In this document: piece by piece, positions 26,131 through 40,828 of the stretch
Numbering within the stretch: the first letter of the stretch is position 1
Layout: every line of letters begins with the position of its first letter
Program-made: the position numbers and the translations under genes
The notes under the pieces: model-generated
The model's input: only the letters and a program-made list of their open reading frames with translations
Databases searched by the model: none
Told to the model about the DNA's origin: nothing
DNA from: an uncultured Granulosicoccus sp.
GTDB lineage: Bacteria; Pseudomonadota; Gammaproteobacteria; Granulosicoccales; Granulosicoccaceae
NCBI GenBank assembly: GCA_937991945.1
Contig: CALKLO010000025.1
Span: 1-64,000 of the forward strand
Length of the DNA stretch: 64,000 nt
Direction of reading: 5' to 3'

Positions 26131-26193
26131 AAGCTATAGCTATCTGGGCAGTAAACGCTGTCATGTTTGCCCTCCCATAGTAACGGAACACCC

Positions 26194-27618
26194 ATGATTC
26201 TCGGACAAAAGCTTACACAGAGAAAGCGATCACACCGTTTTCCCGCTTTTTTGGACCTACAGGACAAAACGGTTGTACTGATTGGTGGTGGCGACAGAGC
26301 GGCTAGCAAAGCGGGTCGCCTTGTTGCTGGCGGTGCCAAGCTGACTGTTATTGCAGAAAATCTCTGCCAAGCGTTTGCCCCCTTAGCTAACGATGAATCG
26401 TTGAAGCACGAGCCGCGCACCTCTAACAGTGATGACTTCAATAACGTGGCATTGGTAGTCGTTGCCACTGAAGACTCAGATCAAAATACAGTTATAGCGA
26501 AACAGGCTCACGCAGCTGGTGCTTGGGTCAATGTTGCCAATCAACCTGATATGAGCAGTTTTCTTATTCCGTCACTTATCGATCGTTCCCCGTTGCTTGT
26601 GGCTATTTCAAGCGGTGCGACCTCCCCTGTTCTGGCTCGACTACTGACTTCGCGCATAGATGCTTTTCTACCGCACACCTATAGCGACTTAGGTAAATTG
26701 GCAGACACCTATCGAGAGAAGATAAAACAGCACGTGGGTGATTGGCGGCAACGCCGACGCTTCTGGGAGAAACTGCTCAACGGGCGGGTGGGTGAACTTA
26801 TACTCCAAGGACGAATAGACTCGGCTGAGCAAGCAATGGAGAACGCCATCCAGGAGCACGATCAGCATTCACTCAGCGGCGAAGTATATTTAGTTGGAGC
26901 AGGCCCAGGCGATCCAGATCTATTAAGTTTTCGAGCGCTACGACTGATGCAGCAATGCGACATCGTTTTATTCGACCGGTTAGTATCAGAGCCGATCATG
27001 CGCTTGGTTAATTCAGATGCTGAACGGGTTTATGTGGGCAAACGACGCAACGAGCATGCTGTTCCTCAAGAGTCTATAAACGGCTTACTAGTCACCTATG
27101 CAAAGCAAGGAAAACGCGTACTACGTTTGAAAGGCGGTGACCCCTTTATCTTTGGACGTGGTGGCGAAGAAATAGAAACACTGGCAGAGCAAGGTGTCTC
27201 ATTTCAGGTGGTACCGGGAATTACCGCTGCGGCAGGTTGTGCCAGCTACGCAGGCATTCCATTAACGCACCGTGATCACGCGCAAGCCTGTTTGTTTGTG
27301 ACTGGGCATTTGAAAGACGGCTCCGTTGATCTGGACTGGCCAGCATTGGCCCGCCCTCATCAAACCGTTGTTATTTATATGGGCTTAATGGGACTACCCG
27401 TTATATGCCAAAAACTCATTGAGCACGGCTTAGCTGAAGAGCACCCTATTGCCCTGATTGCCGAAGGCACTCGACAAAGCCAACAAGTGCTAACTGCTAC
27501 GTTAGGCACACTACCTGAGCTTGTTAACTCACACATTATTAAGCCCCCAACGCTAATCATTGTGGGAGACGTTGTGACGCTTCGAGAAAAACTGGCTTGG
27601 TTTGAAACACGCTCTTAA
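26194..27618 (+). CDS. cysG: Siroheme synthase (uroporphyrinogen methyltransferase/precorrin-2 dehydrogenase/ferrochelatase)
   Basis: A trifunctional enzyme of about 474 residues. I use ATG 26194; the track's TTG 26167 adds nine residues without homology. The N-terminal NAD-dependent dehydrogenase/ferrochelatase half has 'TVVLIGGGDRAASKAGRLVAGGA' and 'VVVATEDSD'. The C-terminal SAM uroporphyrinogen-III methyltransferase has 'GEVYLVGAGPGDPDLLSFRALR', 'VLRLKGGDPFIFGRGGEE' and 'VPGITAAAGCASYAGIPLTHR'. Siroheme serves sulfite and nitrite reductases. The nearby operon at 30747-37088 also carries a SirB chelatase, so the organism may have two ways to load metal into sirohydrochlorin. A short hairpin follows the stop. 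Confidence 0.95.
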   Translation: MILGQKLTQRKRSHRFPAFLDLQDKTVVLIGGGDRAASKAGRLVAGGAKLTVIAENLCQAFAPLANDESLKHEPRTSNSDDFNNVALVVVATEDSDQNTVIAKQAHAAGAWVNVANQPDMSSFLIPSLIDRSPLLVAISSGATSPVLARLLTSRIDAFLPHTYSDLGKLADTYREKIKQHVGDWRQRRRFWEKLLNGRVGELILQGRIDSAEQAMENAIQEHDQHSLSGEVYLVGAGPGDPDLLSFRALRLMQQCDIVLFDRLVSEPIMRLVNSDAERVYVGKRRNEHAVPQESINGLLVTYAKQGKRVLRLKGGDPFIFGRGGEEIETLAEQGVSFQVVPGITAAAGCASYAGIPLTHRDHAQACLFVTGHLKDGSVDLDWPALARPHQTVVIYMGLMGLPVICQKLIEHGLAEEHPIALIAEGTRQSQQVLTATLGTLPELVNSHIIKPPTLIIVGDVVTLREKLAWFETRS

Positions 27619-30746: not shown

Positions 30747-32831
30747 TTACGTTGAGACAGGTAGTTTGAGTACTTTGATAGCGAATGCCTGCTCTACAGC
30801 AACATCGGCAAGGCTCGCATAACGACCTGTTTCTCCGAAATGACCTGAATGCATGTTGGTCTTTAGCAGCAATAGCTGCTCATCAGTTCGCAGGTGGCGA
30901 TGCTTAGCGACCCACTTCGCAGGTTCCCAGTAGGTCACCCGAGGATCAGACACCCCAGCTGTCACAAACATTGGTGGGTATTGACGGGGCTGTACATTGT
31001 CGTAGGGCGAATAGCTCACGATGTCCTTGAACGCCTGCTCACTCTCTATGGGGTTTCCCCACTGCGACCACTCACCGGGAGTTAGCGGTAGGCTATCGTC
31101 AAGCATGGTGTTTAGGACATCAACAAACGGGACATCAGCAATCGCTGCACCCCATAAATCACTATCGCGGTTTAAGGCTGCGCCTACTAATAATCCTCCA
31201 GCAGAGCCACCTGCAATGACAATATTGCCGCGAGCAGTAAAGTGTTGGGCGACTAAGTATTCACCCACAGCAATTAGGTCATCAACGCTTTTAGGTTTTC
31301 CACCGAAGCGTGCCGCCTCATACCAAGCGCGCCCTTTCTCCTGCCCACCACGCACATGGGCAATCGCATAGATAAACCCGCGATCAACAAGCGATAGTCG
31401 GTTAGTGCCAAAATCAGCAGGCGTTGATGAGCCGTAAGCGCCATAGCCCGTCAGCCAACAGGGAGCCGAACCATCCAGCGGTGTATCTTTGTGATACAGC
31501 ATAGTGATAGGTACCAATTCGCCATCACTGGACTCGACGTAGCGTCGCGCAACAACGTAATCGCAAGCGTTGTGACCACTCGGGATAAGATCTTCTTTGA
31601 GTAGTGCTCTCTCACCTGAAACCATAGAATAACTAAAGGTTTGAGAAGGCGTCGCCGGTGACTCATAACCAAAGTGAAAGGTTGTTTCTGAATACTCAAG
31701 TAATGGTTCTAAACTTAACGCAAAGGCCTCTTCCGTAAAATCGATGCGCTGTACTGCCTGCGAATCGTTAGCTTGAAAACAAATACGTGGCAGCGCCTGC
31801 TCGCGCTCCATCCACATCACCCAACCTTCATAGGCGTAGTGATCAAGTACCATGCGACCCGCTTGATAGGGCAACCAGTCTACCCAATGCTTGCGAGAAG
31901 GCGTATCGCACGGGGTTTGCATAATTTTAAAATCCAACGCATTGTCAGCGTTGGTTCTAATCAAAAATCGATCGCCTTGGTGCTCAACACTGTATTCAAT
32001 ATCGTCAGCGCGAGGTTCGACAATACGTAGCTCTCCGGTCAGGTCATCGGTTGAAAGCATCCATACTTCACTTTGATCATTGGTATCCGTTGAAATAAAA
32101 ACGTACTTACCTGACAAGCTCGTCCACACCGAACAATAGAATCGTGCATCGTCTTCTTCAAAGATTAAGACATCTGTTGCCGAATCAGAACCTAACTCAT
32201 GGCGATACACCTGGCTGGGTCTGTGATCCTCATTTAACCTTGTATAAAATAAATACTGAGCATCTCCCCACGCTAGTGATTCAACGTTAGAAATTTCGTC
32301 CTCGTCTTTACCTGTTGCTACATTACGAATAAATGCCGTGTAGCGTTCTGCACCCGTGACATCAGCACTCCAAGCAAGGTGTGTATGGCTAGGACTGTAC
32401 TCGACATCACCGGGATCAAAATAATCACGGCCATCAGCTTCAATATTAAAGTTGATAAGCAAACTTGCACTCGTTTCACTAAATGATGCATCGCGTGGGT
32501 AGCGCCAGTAACTTGAATGCTCATCATCGCCCTGGTATCGCGCAACGTAACTCCATGGGCCGTCGTTATCTGGCAAAGAGATATCGTCAGCTTGAATGCG
32601 ACCTTTCATCTCCTCAAGCAGTGTTTTTTGTAGAGACTGCGTGTCGGCCATGGCCGCGTTGCACCATGCGTTCTCACTATCTAAGTAAGCCTTTATATCA
32701 GTAGGTAGTAATGACGGATCATCTACACAGGCCAGCCAGTTTTCAGCTTTAAGCCATGCGTAATCGTCATGGATAGAAATACCATGTACGTGTTGATGAA
32801 CCGGGATACGTTTCGCGATAGGTGGTTTCAT
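30747..32831 (-). CDS. ptrB: Oligopeptidase B (S9A prolyl oligopeptidase family)
   Basis: A 694-residue serine peptidase that cleaves short peptides after basic residues in the cytosol. The N-terminal ~400 residues form the beta-propeller. The C-terminal alpha/beta-hydrolase has the nucleophile Ser in 'IVIAGGSAGGLLVGAALNRD', the Asp in 'VTAGVSDPRVTYWEPAKWVA' and the His in 'TNMHSGHFGETGR'. 'LTGYGAYGSSTPADFGTNRL' and 'AHVRGGQEKGRAWYEAARFG' are hallmark S9A blocks. ATG 32831 overlaps the stop of the DsrK-like gene by 4 bases, making it the last member of the overlapping operon that begins with the HisD-like gene. A functional link to sulfur redox is not obvious. Confidence 0.94.
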   Translation of the reverse strand: MKPPIAKRIPVHQHVHGISIHDDYAWLKAENWLACVDDPSLLPTDIKAYLDSENAWCNAAMADTQSLQKTLLEEMKGRIQADDISLPDNDGPWSYVARYQGDDEHSSYWRYPRDASFSETSASLLINFNIEADGRDYFDPGDVEYSPSHTHLAWSADVTGAERYTAFIRNVATGKDEDEISNVESLAWGDAQYLFYTRLNEDHRPSQVYRHELGSDSATDVLIFEEDDARFYCSVWTSLSGKYVFISTDTNDQSEVWMLSTDDLTGELRIVEPRADDIEYSVEHQGDRFLIRTNADNALDFKIMQTPCDTPSRKHWVDWLPYQAGRMVLDHYAYEGWVMWMEREQALPRICFQANDSQAVQRIDFTEEAFALSLEPLLEYSETTFHFGYESPATPSQTFSYSMVSGERALLKEDLIPSGHNACDYVVARRYVESSDGELVPITMLYHKDTPLDGSAPCWLTGYGAYGSSTPADFGTNRLSLVDRGFIYAIAHVRGGQEKGRAWYEAARFGGKPKSVDDLIAVGEYLVAQHFTARGNIVIAGGSAGGLLVGAALNRDSDLWGAAIADVPFVDVLNTMLDDSLPLTPGEWSQWGNPIESEQAFKDIVSYSPYDNVQPRQYPPMFVTAGVSDPRVTYWEPAKWVAKHRHLRTDEQLLLLKTNMHSGHFGETGRYASLADVAVEQAFAIKVLKLPVST

Positions 32832-34330
32832 GTAAGAACCAGTGCGTCGCCTACCAGATGATGCAAACTGGTGACTTGCACGTCAGAGAGATTATGATGC
32901 GGTAAGACCGATGTCAGCTGTGTTTTACAAATGGCACAGATAGCCACAAGGTGAGTCACTTGGTCGGATGAAACAACGGCTTGTAATGCTTGCGCGCGAG
33001 GTAGGGCACCTTTGATGCGAACATCCATTAAGTCATCGGTAAGAAGGCCTCCCCCGCCACCACAACAAAAGGTAGCTTGCCCGGTAGTGTCCGCACTCAT
33101 ATCAACAAGCTTAGGGACACTAGCTGCGAGCAGTGCACGGGGTATCTTAAATTGCCCGCCATCAATATCGCCCATACCGGCACCACGAGCAACATTGCAT
33201 GAGTCGTGGTAAGTCACAACCACGTCAGCATTACGACTTGGGTCTAGTTGAATAATACCTTGCGTAAGCAGTTGGTGAGTCACCTCGCAAATATGTTCTG
33301 CTCGCGGATGCTCTGGTGATAAAAATTCCATTGGCCCGACGAGCGTATCGAGGAAACTGTAAGCAACGCGCCAAGCATGCCCACATTCACCAATCACAAT
33401 TCGCTTAACACCTAAGCCCATCGCTGCATGGCGAATGCGCAAAGCAATATCGCGCATGTGATCATGCTGCCCAGTAAACAAAGCAAAGTTTGCAGCCTCA
33501 GATGCCTCAGAGCTAAACGTCCATCGGATACCTGCCTGATGCAACACTTTTGCATAGCCAATCAACCCGTCGACATGCGGCTCAGCAAAAAAATCGGCAG
33601 ACGGTGTTACCACCAACATATCAGCGCCTTCATCGTCTAAAGGCAAACGAACCGCCACGCCTGTGTCCTCTAGAATGTCTTCTTCCAAACTTTGAAGTAC
33701 ATCGGCCAATGCTCGCGGCTTCATGCCTAAGTTGTTACCAATACTGTGAACTTTACCTATGATTTCTTGGGAGTACTGCTGGCCCAAACCAATGCTGGCT
33801 AGCACTTCCCTGCCCGCCATGGTGACCTCAGAGGTATCAATGCCCTTTGGGCAAAACACCGTACAGCGACGACACTCTGAGCATTGATGGAAATAGGTAT
33901 ACCAGTCTTGCAGTAATGATTTGTCTAAATTGCGTGCACCCACTAGCCACGGAAATAATCGTCCTGCCCACGTAAAGTAGCGTCGGTACACTGAGCGCAG
34001 CAGATCTTGTCTTGCCACCGGCATATTCTTCGGATCATGTGTGCCTAAAAAGTAATGACACTTGTCGGTGCACGCCCCACATTTTGTGCAGGTATCCATG
34101 AATACGCGCAGCCCACGTCGCGCCTTAAGCAATTGCCCTAAGCGCGCTATGGCCTTGTCATGCCAGTCATCGACTAAGGTGCCCGGCAGCCCTAGAGATT
34201 CTTGTATGTCAGCAGTCGCTTTTGCCGTTTGACTCGCAGCGCTGGCACCTTCCTGAATCAAGGGTATGACTCGATAGCGCCCCACCACTTGCGGGGTATC
34301 AACTACCGTGTTGTCGTTAGACAGCTTCAT
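32828..34330 (-). CDS. DsrK/HdrD-like iron-sulfur oxidoreductase
   Basis: A 500-residue soluble or membrane-attached electron-transfer subunit. Two [4Fe-4S] ferredoxin motifs are visible, 'CTKCGACTDKC' and 'CSECRRCTVFCPKG'. The C-terminal CCG domain holds 'YHDSCNVARG', 'FCCGGGGGLLTDD' and 'VAICAICKTQL', the ligand set for the noncubane-type cluster of HdrB/HdrD/DsrK, with spacings a little longer than the textbook range (43 and 40 residues by my count). In DsrMKJOP the DsrK subunit exchanges electrons with DsrC. Here DsrM-like and DsrC genes lie directly upstream with 4- and 35-base overlaps, so the same role is likely. There is no dsrJOP in the window. Confidence 0.85.
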   Translation of the reverse strand: MKLSNDNTVVDTPQVVGRYRVIPLIQEGASAASQTAKATADIQESLGLPGTLVDDWHDKAIARLGQLLKARRGLRVFMDTCTKCGACTDKCHYFLGTHDPKNMPVARQDLLRSVYRRYFTWAGRLFPWLVGARNLDKSLLQDWYTYFHQCSECRRCTVFCPKGIDTSEVTMAGREVLASIGLGQQYSQEIIGKVHSIGNNLGMKPRALADVLQSLEEDILEDTGVAVRLPLDDEGADMLVVTPSADFFAEPHVDGLIGYAKVLHQAGIRWTFSSEASEAANFALFTGQHDHMRDIALRIRHAAMGLGVKRIVIGECGHAWRVAYSFLDTLVGPMEFLSPEHPRAEHICEVTHQLLTQGIIQLDPSRNADVVVTYHDSCNVARGAGMGDIDGGQFKIPRALLAASVPKLVDMSADTTGQATFCCGGGGGLLTDDLMDVRIKGALPRAQALQAVVSSDQVTHLVAICAICKTQLTSVLPHHNLSDVQVTSLHHLVGDALVLT

Positions 34331-35064
34331 TGAGAAGGTTTGCCCTTAGAAGATGATCTAGCCGATGTATCACGCTCGTTAAGCGTTGGGCTAAATACGA
34401 TACCCACACCGTGCAACAATTTACTAATAGGAAAAACGAAAAACAGCAGCAGCACTAACACGAGATGAACGACTAACACCACACCATCGGGCAAAGCTTG
34501 CCATTGCAGTGTTAACGCGCCACGTAAAAACTCACCAACACCGAATGTGTCTACTGGCCACAAACGCTTTAACGCGACCCCAGACAAACCAATACTGATG
34601 AGCAGTAGCAAGTGCAAGTAATCGCTTGGTGTGGATATATAGCGATAGCGATCAACCACGATGCGTCTGATAAGCAACACGCACAACCCTAGCAACATAG
34701 CCAGTGCCGCCCAGCCACTCCACACAATAAAAGGCAGTAAACTTGAAGGGATGCTAGCGAAAAAAAATCGCACATGCATAATCAACACGAACAACAAGCC
34801 ATAGTGAAAAAACACACTGGCAAGCCAGGTGACTCTATTGGCTTTGGCCAAGGCGCGAAATAATACAATCTCTGCCAGCAAGCGAACCACAACACCATAG
34901 CGCGTGCGCGGTGCAGGCGTTAACGGTATGGGCAAAGGTGATGGTGTACTGGCCCATTGATACAACTTGAAACACGTTCCTAGTAGTGCCCACGCCACAA
35001 TGACGGTTAACGCAAGCCCTAACAGGAGATCAAACACAGCCAGTCGGTTTAGGTAGCCCTGCAT
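34327..35064 (-). CDS. DsrM/NarI-like membrane cytochrome b subunit
   Basis: A 245-residue integral membrane protein with about five helices. Histidines suitable for heme b sit in 'VFFHYGLLFVLIMHVRFFF', 'DYLHLLLLISIGLSG', 'VVHLVLVLLLFFVFPISKLLHG' and nearby. The NarI-type (nitrate reductase gamma) fold and its neighbour DsrK-like protein point to a DsrM-like quinone-reactive subunit rather than a nitrate reductase part: no narGHJ is present. ATG 35064 lies 35 bases inside the end of the DsrC gene, and the stop overlaps the DsrK-like start, so the three are translationally linked. The C-terminal tail is charged and cytoplasmic. Confidence 0.82.
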   Translation of the reverse strand: MQGYLNRLAVFDLLLGLALTVIVAWALLGTCFKLYQWASTPSPLPIPLTPAPRTRYGVVVRLLAEIVLFRALAKANRVTWLASVFFHYGLLFVLIMHVRFFFASIPSSLLPFIVWSGWAALAMLLGLCVLLIRRIVVDRYRYISTPSDYLHLLLLISIGLSGVALKRLWPVDTFGVGEFLRGALTLQWQALPDGVVLVVHLVLVLLLFFVFPISKLLHGVGIVFSPTLNERDTSARSSSKGKPSQ

Positions 35065-35356
35065 ATCGACACGCCTGCTTGGCTGGGCCTCGAGGAAACA
35101 GTTCGTATAGATACTTACTGTTGCCTTTTTCTTGGCCGTAGCGCTTGCCTATTTGCTTGGTCAATATGCGAATGGCAGGTGCTATCTCGTAATTTTCGTA
35201 ATATTCTTGTAAAAACGATATCACTTCCCAGTGCGCATCATCGAGGACAATGTCATCGGCAACAGCCAGCTCCAACGCTAGCTCGCGTGTCCAGTCACCC
35301 CTATTTTTTAGGTAACCCTCGTGATCCGTATCTACCGAGTCGATCAATGCGCTCAT
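35030..35356 (-). CDS. dsrC: DsrC/TusE family sulfur-carrier protein with both C-terminal cysteines
   Basis: A 108-residue small sulfur-relay protein. The core shows 'EGYLKNRGDWTRELALELA', 'DDAHWEVISFLQEYYENYEIAPAIRILTKQIGKRYG' and 'LYELFPRGPAKQACRYAGLPKPTGCV'. The last segment carries two cysteines with ten residues between them, the second penultimate. Family knowledge: true DsrC has both (CysB and CysA) and can form a disulfide or trisulfide in sulfite/sulfur chemistry, whereas TusE keeps only the penultimate one. This copy is therefore redox-type DsrC, consistent with the DsrM- and DsrK-like genes that follow. Its sulfur donor or acceptor enzyme is not in the window. Confidence 0.92.
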   Translation of the reverse strand: MSALIDSVDTDHEGYLKNRGDWTRELALELAVADDIVLDDAHWEVISFLQEYYENYEIAPAIRILTKQIGKRYGQEKGNSKYLYELFPRGPAKQACRYAGLPKPTGCV

Positions 35357-35370
35357 AGCTTGTGCTTTTT

Positions 35371-35730
35371 TTAATTGGCGAGCTTGAGGAGTACGTCGAC
35401 CAATTCGTCAGAGGTACCCAAGTAGTCAGTAATACGTATATCCATGTCTGGATACTGCACTTGCTTGATAGCGACTTGCTCTGGAATGTCGTCAGCGACA
35501 TGGGTTCCACGGGCAAGAAAATAAGGCACTACGCTTACGCTTGTGGCACCTTTTTGTATACATTTTTCAATACCGTCAGGAATATAGGGCTCACATAATT
35601 CCAGAAAAGCATGCTCAACAATGGGGACATCCGCAGATGCCTTAGCTGCCAAACGCTCAGTGAGCCGGCCAATTTCAAGGTTCGATTCAGCCCGTCGGCT
35701 ACCGTGGGCTACTAACAAAATAGATTTCAT
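35371..35730 (-). CDS. sirB: Sirohydrochlorin chelatase, small CbiX/SirB type
   Basis: A 119-residue class II chelatase that inserts iron (siroheme) or cobalt (cobamide) into sirohydrochlorin. The N-terminal active-site strand is 'ILLVAHGSRRAESNLEIGRL' with the conserved His, followed by 'VEHAFLELCEPYIPDGIEKCI' and 'VSVVPYFLARGTHVADDIPEQV', which carries the second His. Length fits a single-domain CbiX-short/SirB. The ATG overlaps the stop of the HisD-like gene by 4 bases, and dsrC follows after 14 bases. Because the organism also has cysG at 26194, this enzyme may supply siroheme specifically when the operon is expressed; a cobalamin role is less likely without cob/cbi neighbours. Confidence 0.92.
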   Translation of the reverse strand: MKSILLVAHGSRRAESNLEIGRLTERLAAKASADVPIVEHAFLELCEPYIPDGIEKCIQKGATSVSVVPYFLARGTHVADDIPEQVAIKQVQYPDMDIRITDYLGTSDELVDVLLKLAN

Positions 35731-37088
35731 ACTGCGTCTCCTTTTTTCATTCGCGCTACGGCTTCATCACGCAGTTCAGAGACTGCATTTGCATGGCCGT
35801 CGAAACCTTCATACGTAGCAAAACGATGTGTGTGCGGCGCCATTTCTGAATAACCAGACGCTGTCATGTGTCCGACAGAGCAAGTCTTCATAAAATCGTG
35901 CACACCCAACGGGGAGTGAGTTCGTGCCGCACCTGATGTCGGTAACACGCAGTTGGGCCCCATCATGTAGTTGGCAATAGAGCCTGCCGCATGTTCACCG
36001 AGTAAAATTTCACTCGCATTACGGATATGCGCTAGATGCTCATACGGTGTTTTTGACAACACTTGGCAATGCTCAGGTGCGTAGTCGTTGATGAAGGCGT
36101 AGGCAGCTTCAGGGCTATCCGCTAAAACAATGCCACCACGTTGACCGCTCAACACGGTGGACGAGTACCCTGCCAGCTTTTCATTTTGTTGATCCCAGTA
36201 ATCTGGGATAGCTTTGCGAACCGCCTCCGCGATGTCGCGGCTCCAGGTCACCAAGAATGAACTGCTGTCTGGACCGTGTTCCGACTCAATAGTCATATCT
36301 AAGGCGGCGATTAACGGGTTGGCCGTTTCATCGGCAAGAATGATGGTTTCACTGGGACCCGCTGGCAGACCTGGGTCTATTCGACCAACCAGTTTGCGTT
36401 TTGCCGCGACCAGCCAAGGGTTGCCTGGGCCGACAATTTTAAAGCACCGTGGCACGGTCGCGGTGCCGTAAGCCACAGCCGCCACTGCTTGCGCACCACC
36501 TGCTTTGAAAACGCGCTCGACCCCGGCAAGCCTTGCTGCAACCAACGTGGCAGGGTCGACGTCACCATCAGCTCCCGGTGGGGTCAAAATAATGGGCTCT
36601 GGCACCCCTGCAACCGATGCAGGAATAGCCGTCATTAGTGTTACTGAAGGGAACGAGCCTTTGCCGCGTGGTGAATAGCATGCAACGGAATCTATTGGCG
36701 TTGCGCGCTCGCCCACCAAAACACCTGGCCGGATTTCTTTCATCCACATTTCAGGCGGCAACTGAGCTTCGTGGAAACGACGAATATTGTCGGCTGAATA
36801 TTCTAAGGTTTCGATCATGGCCCGATCAACCTTATCAAACGCCTTGTCTATGTCCTGCCGGGTTGCCGCGATGGCATCAGCGGTTAAGGACTTAGCGCCA
36901 TCAAACTCTCGAGCAAATCGAGCTAGCGCTTCATCGCCTTCTGCGCGAACTGCCGCAATGATGGGTTCAACGCCTGCCAGAAAAGTGTCTAGGTCATCTT
37001 CGGCACGGCTTAATAGCTGCTCGTACTCATGATCCGCGAGTTTGGATAATTCGTGAAGGGCAACCTCAGGGTATTGACGATTCGACAT
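35727..37088 (-). CDS. Histidinol dehydrogenase-family protein, divergent paralogue
   Basis: A 453-residue NAD-dependent alcohol dehydrogenase of the HisD fold. The track start is 82 codons too early; ATG 37088 gives the natural N-terminus (SNRQYPEVALHELSKLA). Family blocks include 'PIDSVACYSPRGKGSFPSVTLMTAIPASVAGV', 'AVAYGTATVPRCFKIVGPGN' and 'GPSETIILADE', and the catalytic Glu-His pair is kept in 'INDYAPEHCQVLS'. Compared with E. coli HisD zinc ligands (Gln259, His262, Asp360, His419), the first reads Glu ('IESEHGPDSS') and the third Asn ('SIANYMMGP'). With no his genes nearby, histidine synthesis is unlikely. HpsN-type sulfopropanediol dehydrogenase is one possible relative. It is the first gene of the sirB-dsrC operon. 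Confidence 0.82.
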   Translation of the reverse strand: MSNRQYPEVALHELSKLADHEYEQLLSRAEDDLDTFLAGVEPIIAAVRAEGDEALARFAREFDGAKSLTADAIAATRQDIDKAFDKVDRAMIETLEYSADNIRRFHEAQLPPEMWMKEIRPGVLVGERATPIDSVACYSPRGKGSFPSVTLMTAIPASVAGVPEPIILTPPGADGDVDPATLVAARLAGVERVFKAGGAQAVAAVAYGTATVPRCFKIVGPGNPWLVAAKRKLVGRIDPGLPAGPSETIILADETANPLIAALDMTIESEHGPDSSSFLVTWSRDIAEAVRKAIPDYWDQQNEKLAGYSSTVLSGQRGGIVLADSPEAAYAFINDYAPEHCQVLSKTPYEHLAHIRNASEILLGEHAAGSIANYMMGPNCVLPTSGAARTHSPLGVHDFMKTCSVGHMTASGYSEMAPHTHRFATYEGFDGHANAVSELRDEAVARMKKGDAV

Positions 37089-37349: not shown

Positions 37350-38669
37350 GTGCAAAACTCTTCACAATCAGCCGCGGCCCAGCCCGGCTCAGTCCAGCAT
37401 ACCGATAGCTACTACGCGGCCTCCGCAAACAGCGCTCCAGAGCGCGAATCGCTGAAAGAGTCCATAGAAGCCGATGTTTGCGTGATTGGTGGCGGTTTTA
37501 GCGGCTTATCAGCAGCACTGCACCTTAGCGCGCAAGGTCGCCATGTGACGCTGCTAGAGGGAGCCCGAATTGGCTGGGGCGCATCTGGCCGAAATGGTGG
37601 CCAGCTGATCCACGGACTCAATGCCAGCTTAGAGACCGTAGGCAAGCGCTACGGACAAGAAGCCGCCAATTTTATTGGCAGCCTGGTTCAAGAAGGCGCC
37701 GGCGTCATTCGCCAGTTTGTACAAGAACACAATATAGAGTGCGACATTAAACAGCGCAGCATTTTCGCAGCCTTCAATGCTCGTCAAATACGCGACTTAG
37801 AACAAAAGCAAATTTTGTGGCGAAAGCACGGCATGGACGACCATGAAATGCTCGATAAAAATAGCATTCGAGATCACATCGGCTCTGATGCGTATTTAGG
37901 TGGCATGTTGGATCATTCCGGCGGGCATATTCACCCGCTCAATTTAGCGCTTGGCGAGGCAGCAGCCTTAGAAAAGCTGGGCGGAAAAATTTATGAACAA
38001 TCGCGCGTCACTCGGGTTGACTCTATAGAAACCAAACCGGTTGTCATCACTGACACTGGCGAGGTTCGTTGTAAAACGTTGGTAGTGTGTGGCAACGCGT
38101 ATCTAGGCAAGAGCATTCCCATGCTCGAACCGCGGGTTATGCCCGTGTCCACCCAAGTTATGGCAACCGAACCTCTATCCGATGAACTAGCCAATTCCCT
38201 GTTACCCAGTGATAGCTCCGTGGAGGATGTTCGCTACATTCTTGACTACTATCGCCTGTCTGCCGACAAGCGCATGTTGTGGGGCGGTGGCACGGTTTAC
38301 GGGGGTAGTGAGCCTTCAGATATCATCGCTAAACTGCGACCCAATATGGAAAAGATATTCCCCGAGTTGCAAGGGGTAGAAATATCTCATGCGTGGAGCG
38401 GCAATTTTGCATTAACGTTTACGCGTGTGCCGTTGCTAGGCAAGCTGGGGCCCGACTCCTACTACGCTATGGGCTACAGTGGACATGGCGTGACTGGCAC
38501 CCATTTATTCGGCAAGTTGCTTGCAGAAGCGGTAGGTGGCGACAGTTCTCGTTTTGATCGATTTGCAGCGCTTCCTTGGTACCCTTTTCCAGGTGGCCAA
38601 CGATTCAGAGCGCCCTACTCCACCGTTGGTTCTTGGTGGTATGGCCTACGGGACACTCTTGGAGTATAG
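37350..38669 (+). CDS. FAD-dependent amine oxidoreductase, PuuB-like (first copy)
   Basis: A 439-residue DAO-family flavoenzyme. The FAD-binding Rossmann motif is 'ADVCVIGGGFSGLSAALHL', followed by 'RIGWGASGRNGGQLIHG', the signature of gamma-glutamylputrescine oxidase-like proteins. 'LDHSGGHIHPLNLALGEAAALEKLG' and 'YSGHGVTGTHLFGKLLAEAV' are also conserved. GTG 37350 is preceded by AGGT. It begins a plus-strand operon with an amidotransferase (3 bases later), a glutamine-synthetase homologue and a second copy of the oxidase. The likely reaction is oxidation of a gamma-glutamylated amine to aldehyde, with H2O2 and ammonia released. The exact amine is unknown. Confidence 0.88.
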   Translation: MQNSSQSAAAQPGSVQHTDSYYAASANSAPERESLKESIEADVCVIGGGFSGLSAALHLSAQGRHVTLLEGARIGWGASGRNGGQLIHGLNASLETVGKRYGQEAANFIGSLVQEGAGVIRQFVQEHNIECDIKQRSIFAAFNARQIRDLEQKQILWRKHGMDDHEMLDKNSIRDHIGSDAYLGGMLDHSGGHIHPLNLALGEAAALEKLGGKIYEQSRVTRVDSIETKPVVITDTGEVRCKTLVVCGNAYLGKSIPMLEPRVMPVSTQVMATEPLSDELANSLLPSDSSVEDVRYILDYYRLSADKRMLWGGGTVYGGSEPSDIIAKLRPNMEKIFPELQGVEISHAWSGNFALTFTRVPLLGKLGPDSYYAMGYSGHGVTGTHLFGKLLAEAVGGDSSRFDRFAALPWYPFPGGQRFRAPYSTVGSWWYGLRDTLGV

Positions 38670-38672
38670 ATA

Positions 38673-39410
38673 GTGACTACAACTACATCACCCTCGCGAG
38701 TACGTCTTGGTGTCCTGCAAGCAGGTCGTGTACCCGAAGAGATGTCCGGCGAGCATGCGGACTACGATCAATTGTTTGTCAACCTGTTAGGCGAAAACGA
38801 ATTTGATTACCATCATTGGGCAGTGCTTGATGGCGACCTCCCCGACAGCATTGACGATGCAGATGCATGGTTAATAACCGGATCTCGATTCGGCGCTTAT
38901 GAAGACCATGATTGGATTCCACCCTTGGAGGATTTTATTCGCGATGTTTATGCATCAGACAAACCCATGGTAGGTATCTGTTTTGGTCATCAAATTATTG
39001 CTCAGGCGCTGGGTGGCAAAGTAGAAAAATTCAATGGTGGTTGGTCCGTTGGTCGTGTGGAATACTCGCTCGATAAAAACGTCTTTGGCGAACACAGTGC
39101 CGATGCCGCGAATCAAACGGCACTCCTTGCTTTCCACCAAGATCAAGTTGTGCAAGCTCCTGAAGAGGCGACAACCGTGGGCAGTACTGATTTTTGCAAA
39201 CACGCCGCCCTGCTCTACGGAAATCGTATGCTGACCATCCAGCCGCACCCAGAATTTTATTCGGAGTTCATTGGCGGACTACTGGTGGCCCGTCGCGATT
39301 TATTACCCAGCGATGTTAGAGACACCGCAGCTGCCACTTTGCATGACACTATTGTGCGCGAACCCATCGCGGCAACACTGCGCAACTTCCTAAAGCGGGA
39401 AAGCGCCTAG
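38673..39410 (+). CDS. Class I glutamine amidotransferase-like hydrolase
   Basis: A 245-residue GATase1 domain protein. The nucleophile elbow is 'MVGICFGHQIIAQALGGKVE' and the His-Glu pair lies in 'LTIQPHPEFYSEF', so the triad is complete. It resembles the stand-alone YfeJ-like branch more than PuuD (which has a different fold signature), but the context suggests hydrolysis of a gamma-glutamyl amide made by the neighbouring synthetase, the step that PuuD performs in E. coli. GTG 38673 has a GGAG eight bases upstream and lies 3 bases after the oxidase stop. Inference: it recovers glutamate at the end of the pathway. Confidence 0.85.
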   Translation: MTTTTSPSRVRLGVLQAGRVPEEMSGEHADYDQLFVNLLGENEFDYHHWAVLDGDLPDSIDDADAWLITGSRFGAYEDHDWIPPLEDFIRDVYASDKPMVGICFGHQIIAQALGGKVEKFNGGWSVGRVEYSLDKNVFGEHSADAANQTALLAFHQDQVVQAPEEATTVGSTDFCKHAALLYGNRMLTIQPHPEFYSEFIGGLLVARRDLLPSDVRDTAAATLHDTIVREPIAATLRNFLKRESA

Positions 39411-39457
39411 ACTTACAACACCCATAACTTAACGCTAACTAGCTGTGCGAAAAAACT

Positions 39458-40828
39458 ATGAGTACTAACTCGAAGTGGATGGAGCAACTTCCGGAAGCCT
39501 TTCATACCTGGCTAGACGGTCGACGAGTTGATGATGTGGAGTGTGTCGTTGCCGACCTTGCAGGCACGTCGCGTGGCAAAGCCATGCCGGCGAGAAAGTT
39601 TGCCCGTGCCGATGCTATGTATCTGCCCACCTCTATTTTCTATCAAACCATAACGGGTGAGTACGTTGACCTTGAAGACATGGAAGATCAATGGACTGAA
39701 TCTGATTTAGTCTTAACGCCTGATTTTTCTGCAGCAACTGCTGTTCCATGGTCGGACGATGTGACACTGCAAGTGGTTCACGACATCCACAATCAAGATG
39801 GCAGCCCAGTAGGTGTGGCGCCACGAAACGTACTCAAACGCGTTGTAAACGAATACTTAAAGGAAGGTTGGCGCCCCGTGGTTGCCCCTGAGTTGGAGTT
39901 CTATTTAACTAAACCGAATATCGACCCTAACCTGCCTGTCGAGCCACCTATCGGTCGTACCGGCAGACAAGGCATTGCCAAGCAAGCCTATTCTATGAGT
40001 GCCGTGGAAGAGTACGGGCCAGTCATTGACGATATCTATGACTTTGCCGAAGCTCAAGGGTTTGAAATAGACACCATCATTCAGGAAGGTGGCGCTGGCC
40101 AAATTGAAATCAACTTGCAACACGGTGACCCGATACATTTGGCGGACCAAGTCTTTTTTTACAAGAGACTCATTCGCGAAGCAGCGCTGCGCAACAACTG
40201 CTTTGCAACCTTCATGGCCAAGCCAATGGAAGAACAGCCTGGCAGTGCAATGCACATTCATCAAAGTGTCATTCGCACCTCAGATGGTAAGAATTTATTC
40301 AACACTGACGAAGACAAACCAACCGAACTTTTCTACGGTTTTCTGGCAGGTCAACAAGCACTAACTCCAGACATCCTGTGCATTTTGGCTCCCTATGTGA
40401 ATTCCTACCGACGATTCCGTCGCGATGACTCAGCACCTATCAACCTCGAATGGGGTTTTGATAACAGAACTACAGGCATTCGCGTGCCGTTGTCGAGCCC
40501 TGAAAGTCGTCGTGTCGAAAATCGCGTTGTGGGTATGGACGTTAATCCGTATCTTGCTATTGCAGCTAGCTTGGCCTGTGGACTCATCGGTATGCGTAAC
40601 AAGATGAAACCACGCGATGAAGTCAAGAGTGACGCCTACTCCCTACCGCATGATCTGCCTATTGACCTACCTAGGGCGTTAGATTTATTTAACGAGAGCC
40701 CTGAACTCAACGAACTATTGGGTAACGACTTTTGCAAACTCTATAGCGCCGTTAAACGCCAGGAATCAGATGCGTTTCTACAAGTCATCAGCCCTTGGGA
40801 ACGAGAACACTTACTGTTAAACGTGTAG
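39458..40828 (+). CDS. puuA: Glutamine synthetase-family gamma-glutamylamine synthetase (PuuA-like)
   Basis: A 456-residue GS-fold ligase that joins glutamate to an amine using ATP. The N-terminal beta-grasp ('DDVECVVADLAGTSRGKAMPA') precedes the catalytic domain with 'VVAPELEFYLTK', 'QEGGAGQIEINLQHGDP', 'AKPMEEQPGSAMHIHQSVI', 'INLEWGFDNRTTGIRVPLS' and 'ENRVVGMDVNPYLAIAASLA'. The absence of the adenylylation-site region of GlnA and the flanking FAD oxidases favour gamma-glutamylputrescine synthetase or a close relative such as a monoamine or ethanolamine ligase. It sits between the amidotransferase and the second oxidase. No puuC aldehyde dehydrogenase or GABA transaminase is in the window. 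Confidence 0.88.
   Translation: MSTNSKWMEQLPEAFHTWLDGRRVDDVECVVADLAGTSRGKAMPARKFARADAMYLPTSIFYQTITGEYVDLEDMEDQWTESDLVLTPDFSAATAVPWSDDVTLQVVHDIHNQDGSPVGVAPRNVLKRVVNEYLKEGWRPVVAPELEFYLTKPNIDPNLPVEPPIGRTGRQGIAKQAYSMSAVEEYGPVIDDIYDFAEAQGFEIDTIIQEGGAGQIEINLQHGDPIHLADQVFFYKRLIREAALRNNCFATFMAKPMEEQPGSAMHIHQSVIRTSDGKNLFNTDEDKPTELFYGFLAGQQALTPDILCILAPYVNSYRRFRRDDSAPINLEWGFDNRTTGIRVPLSSPESRRVENRVVGMDVNPYLAIAASLACGLIGMRNKMKPRDEVKSDAYSLPHDLPIDLPRALDLFNESPELNELLGNDFCKLYSAVKRQESDAFLQVISPWEREHLLLNV

Follow-up and report, generated by a model that had tools for sequence, protein, structure and literature searches.

Results

A dsrCMK core in a six-gene operon

We analysed a 64,000-nucleotide stretch of contig CALKLO010000025.1 from an uncultured Granulosicoccus sp. 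(assembly GCA_937991945.1; 3.83 Mb, 97% complete), here called the window, in which six genes form one head-to-tail run on the minus strand (30747-37085). In the direction of reading they encode HisDL, a divergent protein of the histidinol dehydrogenase family, a CbiX/SirB-type chelatase, DsrC, DsrM, DsrK and the peptidase PtrB. Four of the junctions are overlaps and the sole gap, of 14 bases, separates SirB from DsrC. This six-gene operon is real, and a chance arrangement is implausible because the gene order is conserved in relatives. The reading frames, strand and domain identities of the initial annotation, which had described six overlapping or nearly touching genes, were confirmed, except that its outer end at 37088 lies 3 bases beyond the outer boundary of HisDL (37085). 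At the centre of the run, dsrC, dsrM and dsrK represent a DsrAB-independent DsrC-DsrMK module that is real, conserved and repeatedly arising.

The dsrC gene (35030-35356, minus strand, as for the whole run) encodes a protein of 108 residues that matches TIGR03342 at 149 bits (cut-off 53.5). Its C-terminus, ...FPRGPAKQACRYAGLPKPTGCV, carries both redox cysteines, as had been noted before: the reading frame and DsrC comparison place the inner one, Cys96, at codon 35069-35071 and the penultimate one, Cys107, at codon 35036-35038, while comparison of DsrC sequences with and without dsrAB drew attention to residue 89, here an arginine (codon 35090-35092). The dsrM gene (34327-35064) overlaps dsrC by 35 bases and encodes a DsrM-like membrane haem b subunit of 245 residues that scores 109 bits against NF038037, below the cut-off of 300; it matches the nitrate-reductase gamma domain, and its 24 bits against the NarI model, under the cut-off of 105.55, place it outside NarI. 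DsrK (32828-34330, 500 residues) reaches 525 bits against NF045796 (cut-off 400) and contains two 4Fe4S motifs and the HdrD-type CCG cysteine set. A promoter and terminator scan gave no signal above shuffled background.

Absence of dsrAB from the genome

The initial annotation had found no dsrAB, dsrEFH or dsrJOP in the window, and for the first two the absence holds for the whole genome. Searches with PF01077 (NIR_SIR) and for DsrA were both negative for dsrAB anywhere in the genome, which rules out a location outside the window; the only PF01077 matches are a protein of 549-553 residues of the assimilatory sulfite/nitrite-reductase type, adjoined by a ferredoxin-NADP-reductase-like gene, and an 815-residue NirB-type protein. 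The DsrE/F and TusBCD family (PF02635) gave zero matches. The full dsr cluster elsewhere in the genome that had been set against the earlier proposal was thus not there, neither dsrAB nor dsrEFH being found. The genes dsrL and dsrJOP are absent at the operon locus, to which the search for them was confined, and the genome lacks genuine SoxYZ, its sole SoxZ-like protein being a fused carrier of the PQQ-dehydrogenase type. The DsrC/TusE family is represented by one copy, the DsrC of the operon. Loss of dsrAB during assembly was ruled out for the clade, in which one genome (G388) is a single contig of 7.8 Mb carrying the same operon without dsrAB or the DsrE family and another (G258) is scored 100% complete.

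Gene order and contexts in relatives

The gene order proved to be conserved across genomes, which excludes an arrangement peculiar to the window. The order HisDL-(SirB)-DsrC-DsrM-DsrK-PtrB was found in Granulosicoccus genomes, one Granulosicoccaceae metagenome-assembled genome (MAG) and further genomes of the genus, with SirB missing from the operon in some Granulosicoccus genomes and ptrB located 3' of dsrK in most window-type loci. A survey of 48 genomes from the order comprised 14 with dsrAB and dsrE-family genes beside dsrK and about 24 with DsrK and without dsrAB, in none of which dsrEFH clustered with dsrK; the few weak DsrE-family matches among the dsrAB-less genomes (G354, G403) are single distant paralogues. 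Some of the surveyed genomes are incomplete, which makes single absences less secure than the overall pattern.

The window represents context A, in which HisDL-SirB-dsrCMK-ptrB is convergent with cysG; here the siroheme synthase gene lies downstream on the plus strand (26167-27618; NF007922, 599 bits). Context B combines dsrCMK with a DUF533 gene, TsuA/Pmp-type transporter genes and a Blh-like sulfur dioxygenase gene, with a small S24-like gene adjoining, and context C consists of dsrCMK with cysG and an adjoining S24-like gene. Context D, from another gammaproteobacterial family (L250 and L251; G244 and G340), is a dsrEFHCMK run convergent with cysG and an S24-like gene, and DsrA was not found in either of these two incomplete genomes. 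One locus (G395) reads HisDL-GGT-SirB-SoxY-SoxZ-DsrC-DsrM-DsrK. In four relatives that possess dsrAB, HisDL(-SirB)-SoxYZ adjoins cysG and the full dsr cluster lies elsewhere; in many relatives, cysG lies near dsrCMK or near the HisDL-SirB-SoxYZ locus. The simplest history would be that dsrCMK was added to a HisDL-SirB-SoxYZ locus already in place and that SoxYZ was lost afterwards.

A dsrCMK set without dsrAB is not common in the class, as nearly all genomes with a strong DsrK among about 370 Gammaproteobacteria also have DsrA. Outside Granulosicoccaceae, contig ends or gaps account, or probably account, for a strong DsrK without DsrA in G067, G270 and G186; G244 and G340 are real candidates, and G285 and G284 also belong to this set. 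The last of these genomes (99% complete) has an isolated dsrK and, behind it, a short DsrJ-like gene (L245, 8806-10679), and dsrC, dsrM and DsrA were not found in it.

In 11 loci from two families, all lacking dsrAB (L185-L190, L192-L194, L250 and L251), the gene for the small S24-like protein (about 125-200 residues) is an immediate neighbour of dsrCMK or dsrMK. The two of these proteins that were tested match PF00717, and the group has a conserved Cys and an SM..EF motif in common; the gene occurred in no other scanned locus longer than 6 kb (168 loci in all). Most dsrAB clusters of Granulosicoccaceae (L196, L198 and others) have a gene for a TauD-like dioxygenase upstream of dsrA, in divergent orientation.

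Repeated loss of dsrAB

A DsrK tree of 58 sequences, which has long branches and a bootstrap that is not fully settled, requires five changes in dsrAB presence, three of them forced by well-supported branches. Forcing the DsrAB-less sequences into a single clade lowers the log-likelihood by 83 units (approximately unbiased (AU) test, p 0.024), and a single origin of the DsrAB-less form is ruled out at this level, with long branches as a caveat. As judged from these sequences, dsrAB has been lost several times in Granulosicoccaceae lineages.

The window DsrK is 59-65% identical to DsrK of sulfur oxidisers and hence belongs with the oxidative type. This grouping speaks against a reductive direction, in which quinol-driven DsrMK would reduce a DsrC disulfide or trisulfide and free sulfide or maintain DsrC in its reduced form, perhaps together with the assimilatory sulfite reductase with siroheme from CysG and SirB. 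Such a function would suit the position of cysG near dsrCMK in several separate contexts, the SirB gene inside the operon and the sulfite-reductase-type protein, which is the sole siroheme sulfite-reductase candidate in the genome. However, in an aerobe such disulfides are hard to reduce with ubiquinol and assimilatory sulfite reductases do not need DsrC, and we regard the reductive direction as unlikely.

A DsrC residue that follows dsrAB

The Tyr in the DsrC motif FPYGPAKQAC is present in 26 of 26 sequences from dsrAB-bearing loci and in 0 of 25 from genomes without dsrAB, an association found in this analysis that is not a published criterion. Its replacements in the DsrAB-less sequences are Arg, Lys, Gln, His, Asn or Asp, with Arg89 in the window, and all 25 of these sequences keep the two redox cysteines. 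The Tyr is also lost in G373, which keeps dsrJOP, and in the second family, which keeps dsrEFH, and the presence of the Tyr is thus probably tied to DsrAB or DsrL and not to DsrEFH or DsrJOP. An independent-pairs test of Tyr against dsrAB yielded three supported pairs, all concordant, which are too few for significance. In the DsrC proteins of L250 and L251 (G244 and G340), Asp takes the place of this Tyr.

A basic or polar residue 89 in many DsrAB-less sequences, together with the status of the operon DsrC as the only DsrC/TusE protein of the genome, might also indicate a TusE-like carrier for tRNA thiolation or a sulfur-responsive regulator whose thiols are merely reset by DsrMK. We consider this improbable, given that the genome has no TusBCD-family protein, that two cysteines are kept instead of the single penultimate one of TusE, and that adjacency to dsrMK is maintained.

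The ligands expected of a working redox unit are intact in the DsrAB-less set, with the 14 conserved cysteines of DsrK and the four histidines of DsrM invariant in 26 of 26 sequences. For DsrC and DsrK, dN is 0.08-0.15; dS is mostly saturated, for which reason dN/dS ratios were not used and dN alone was counted. With low dN against mostly saturated dS, both genes are under purifying selection. Accordingly, there is little to recommend the view that dsrCMK is a decaying, functionless leftover of the lost pathway among accidental neighbours. The differing neighbours among lineages, the repeated loss of dsrAB and the drift of DsrM would agree with it, but the invariant redox ligands, the strong conservation of DsrC and DsrK and the fact that dsrC, dsrM and dsrK are still together after separate losses make it very unlikely.

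HisDL and the flanking genes

HisDL (35727-37085, 452 residues) scores 427 bits against the generic hisD model TIGR00069 (cut-off 244). Two other paralogues in the genome pass this model as well, and its score is not discriminating because HpsN-like paralogues score as high as HisDL. Members of the HisDL subfamily have Glu at the Gln metal ligand, Asn at the Asp metal ligand and a residue other than His at the GPNH position; in HisDL itself Cys takes the place of the His of GPNHVLPT, and the canonical HisD ligand set is lacking. The altered residues are common to relatives down to 47% identity.

In the initial annotation, the HisD-like enzyme had been thought to feed electrons or a sulfonated substrate to the module. 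Such an enzyme would oxidise a sulfonated alcohol, similar to 2,3-dihydroxypropane-1-sulfonate (DHPS) or cysteinolate, and the Dsr module would handle the freed sulfur. HpsN, a HisD relative, acts in this way on DHPS (PMC11382572), and ABC transporters are encoded near more distant HisDL relatives (56-58%) and near the second copy that large genomes have. However, the HpsN motif G-R-Y-A/S-H with its axial His is absent from HisDL, which has RGKGSFPS at that place, and a PDB search with HisDL scored HpsN below HisD; on these grounds and that of the altered metal ligands, HisDL was ruled out as an HpsN. As HisDL is also located apart from dsrCMK in many relatives and has a distribution complementary to that of canonical hisD, we give the coupling a low probability, and the sulfonate part of the earlier interpretation is not supported and should be dropped unless biochemistry says otherwise. 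Cysteinolate as a substrate, by structural analogy with histidinol, was an idea only, for which we found no literature support.

Canonical hisD (505-543 bits) occurs in genera g275, g2 and g272 and HisDL in genera g1, g273 and g274, and no genome has both. In an inspected example from g275 (L255), canonical hisD follows murA-hisG-aroG, and the latter genes are present without hisD in 6 inspected genomes of the HisDL group (Granulosicoccus and g273; L260, L261, L262, L265, L266 and L267); two genomes (G403 and G405) have neither form, possibly through incompleteness. Because HisDL never coexists with canonical hisD, which is gone from the murA-hisG-aroG locus of the inspected HisDL genomes, HisDL is a candidate replacement histidinol dehydrogenase; we see about an even chance of this, with the altered active site weighing on such a role. 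On the other side of HisDL, the divergent genes for an FAD oxidoreductase, a class I amidotransferase and a glutamine-synthetase-like ligase (37350-40828, plus strand) are conserved and stay with it even where dsrCMK lies elsewhere, and the link between HisDL and Dsr is thus probably secondary. Most likely, HisDL is not part of the sulfur chemistry.

Further members of the family were noted. A HisD-family paralogue on another contig of the same genome (C123; L205, 3363-4661) has the HpsN motif as GRYSH and is adjoined by genes for a short-chain dehydrogenase/reductase (SDR) and a LacI-type regulator; it is a candidate DHPS dehydrogenase. Large Granulosicoccus genomes (G409, G388 and G410; L182, L183 and L220) have a second HisDL copy, of 62-63% identity, beside ABC-transporter permease genes, which suggests a catabolic branch of the subfamily.

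The remaining genes of the operon encode a SirB/CbiX-like small sirohydrochlorin chelatase (35371-35730, 119 residues; PF01903, 101 bits), whose metal is not assignable from profile matches as the best NCBIfam models score below cut-off, and, at the end of the run, PtrB (30747-32831), an oligopeptidase B-like S9 peptidase that matches PF02897/PF00326 and scores 455 bits against the oligopeptidase B model, below its cut-off of 1313.

Discussion

The initial annotation's idea of a membrane redox unit that works on DsrC in the absence of dsrAB is supported, and the module is conserved in relatives; the DsrC and DsrMK pair probably does another job than serving sulfite reductase. Here we propose that the dsrC-dsrM-dsrK core was kept from the oxidative (reverse) Dsr pathway and put to a new use, as a DsrC:quinone oxidoreductase by which sulfur-loaded DsrC is oxidised on behalf of another enzyme, a proposal that has as good a chance of being right as of being wrong. 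DsrC would take up sulfane sulfur or sulfide-derived sulfur at its C-terminal cysteine, and the HdrD-type 4Fe4S site of DsrK would oxidise this loaded form to the trisulfide or disulfide. Electrons would then reach the quinone pool, and from there oxygen, by way of the two ferredoxin clusters and the haems of DsrM, and the sulfur would be released to a non-DsrAB enzyme, for instance a siroheme enzyme or a sulfur dioxygenase such as those encoded beside dsrCMK in some relatives. In an aerobic host, oxidation is the favoured direction, and the neighbours in relatives (sulfur transporter, sulfur dioxygenase and SoxYZ) may point to sulfane sulfur or sulfide. In the clade of the window, the module would have joined the older HisDL-SirB(-SoxYZ) locus near cysG.

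Several points weigh against this proposal. Its support comes from sequence comparison, and the direction of electron flow rests on an assumed ubiquinone in an aerobe. A sulfur donor to DsrC was not identified, DsrEFH being absent and the search not having covered TusA, rhodaneses, SQR and sulfur dioxygenases, and Sox-derived sulfur is ruled out as the feed in this genome, which has no genuine SoxYZ. In addition, DsrM is only 55-69% identical within the clade.

Somewhat more tentatively, the DsrC:quinone oxidoreductase may be one instance of a free-standing quinone-linked sulfur-carrier oxidase in aerobes without any dissimilatory sulfite reductase, which arose repeatedly by loss of dsrAB, is recognisable in DsrC by loss of the Tyr of FPYGPAKQAC and acquired the S24-like partner in several lineages.

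The accepted role of DsrC and DsrMK is to serve DsrAB, and the presence of dsr genes is widely read as a sign of sulfur energy metabolism. If the module without DsrAB is recurrent, dsrC or dsrMK alone is no marker of the DsrAB pathway, DsrC has a separable function, and the contacts that DsrC made for DsrAB could be read from the residues that change after dsrAB loss. Granulosicoccus is a marine, seaweed-associated genus that dominates kelp surfaces, and the module thus bears on the sulfur ecology of kelp. A study of kelp Granulosicoccus reports assimilatory sulfate reduction, sox, and narI without narG, and its main text is silent on dsr genes (PMC9238374). Since DsrM scores as a nitrate-reductase gamma domain, the narI of these published genomes (L040, L043 and L046; MAGs g3_MAG_00002, g1_MAG_00002 and g4_MAG_00004) may be DsrM, in which case the nitrate reduction deduced from it would be doubtful.

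Among known systems, the oxidative Dsr pathway of the Allochromatium type (dsrABEFHCMKLJOPN) has homologous DsrC, DsrM and DsrK in the same order, and the two DsrC cysteines, the DsrK cluster cysteines and the four DsrM histidines are all present here. In contrast to that pathway, our genome has no dsrAB and no dsrE-family genes, the locus lacks dsrL and dsrJOP, the DsrC Tyr is replaced, and dsrCMK is joined to HisDL, SirB and PtrB. Compared with the DsrMK(JOP) complex, the DsrK cysteines and the DsrM haem histidines are conserved, and DsrJ, DsrO and DsrP are absent from the locus, where they were searched for. DsrMK without DsrJOP is also known from archaeal and some bacterial sulfite reducers, for which DsrABCMK was described as the minimal set and a small number of assemblies, some of them bacterial, had DsrK with no DsrAB identified (PMC10504309); those complexes are mostly of the reductive type with DsrAB, whereas the present one is of the oxidative type and derived by loss. 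The inner DsrC cysteine is almost confined to organisms with DsrAB, with few exceptions (PMC3397948), and the window DsrC resembles the two-cysteine DsrC of Methylococcaceae, Marinobacter and Lawsonia in that DsrAB is missing; in contrast to those taxa, for which DsrMK was not examined, its gene forms an operon with dsrMK and is conserved throughout the family. HpsN, a DHPS 3-dehydrogenase (PMC11382572), belongs to the same protein superfamily as HisDL, which differs in lacking the HpsN motif and in its altered metal-ligand positions. The open-licence literature contained nothing that pairs a histidinol dehydrogenase with DsrC. The initial annotation suggested an undescribed sulfur-redox module; the combination can fairly be called so, although every Dsr component derives from the oxidative Dsr pathway.

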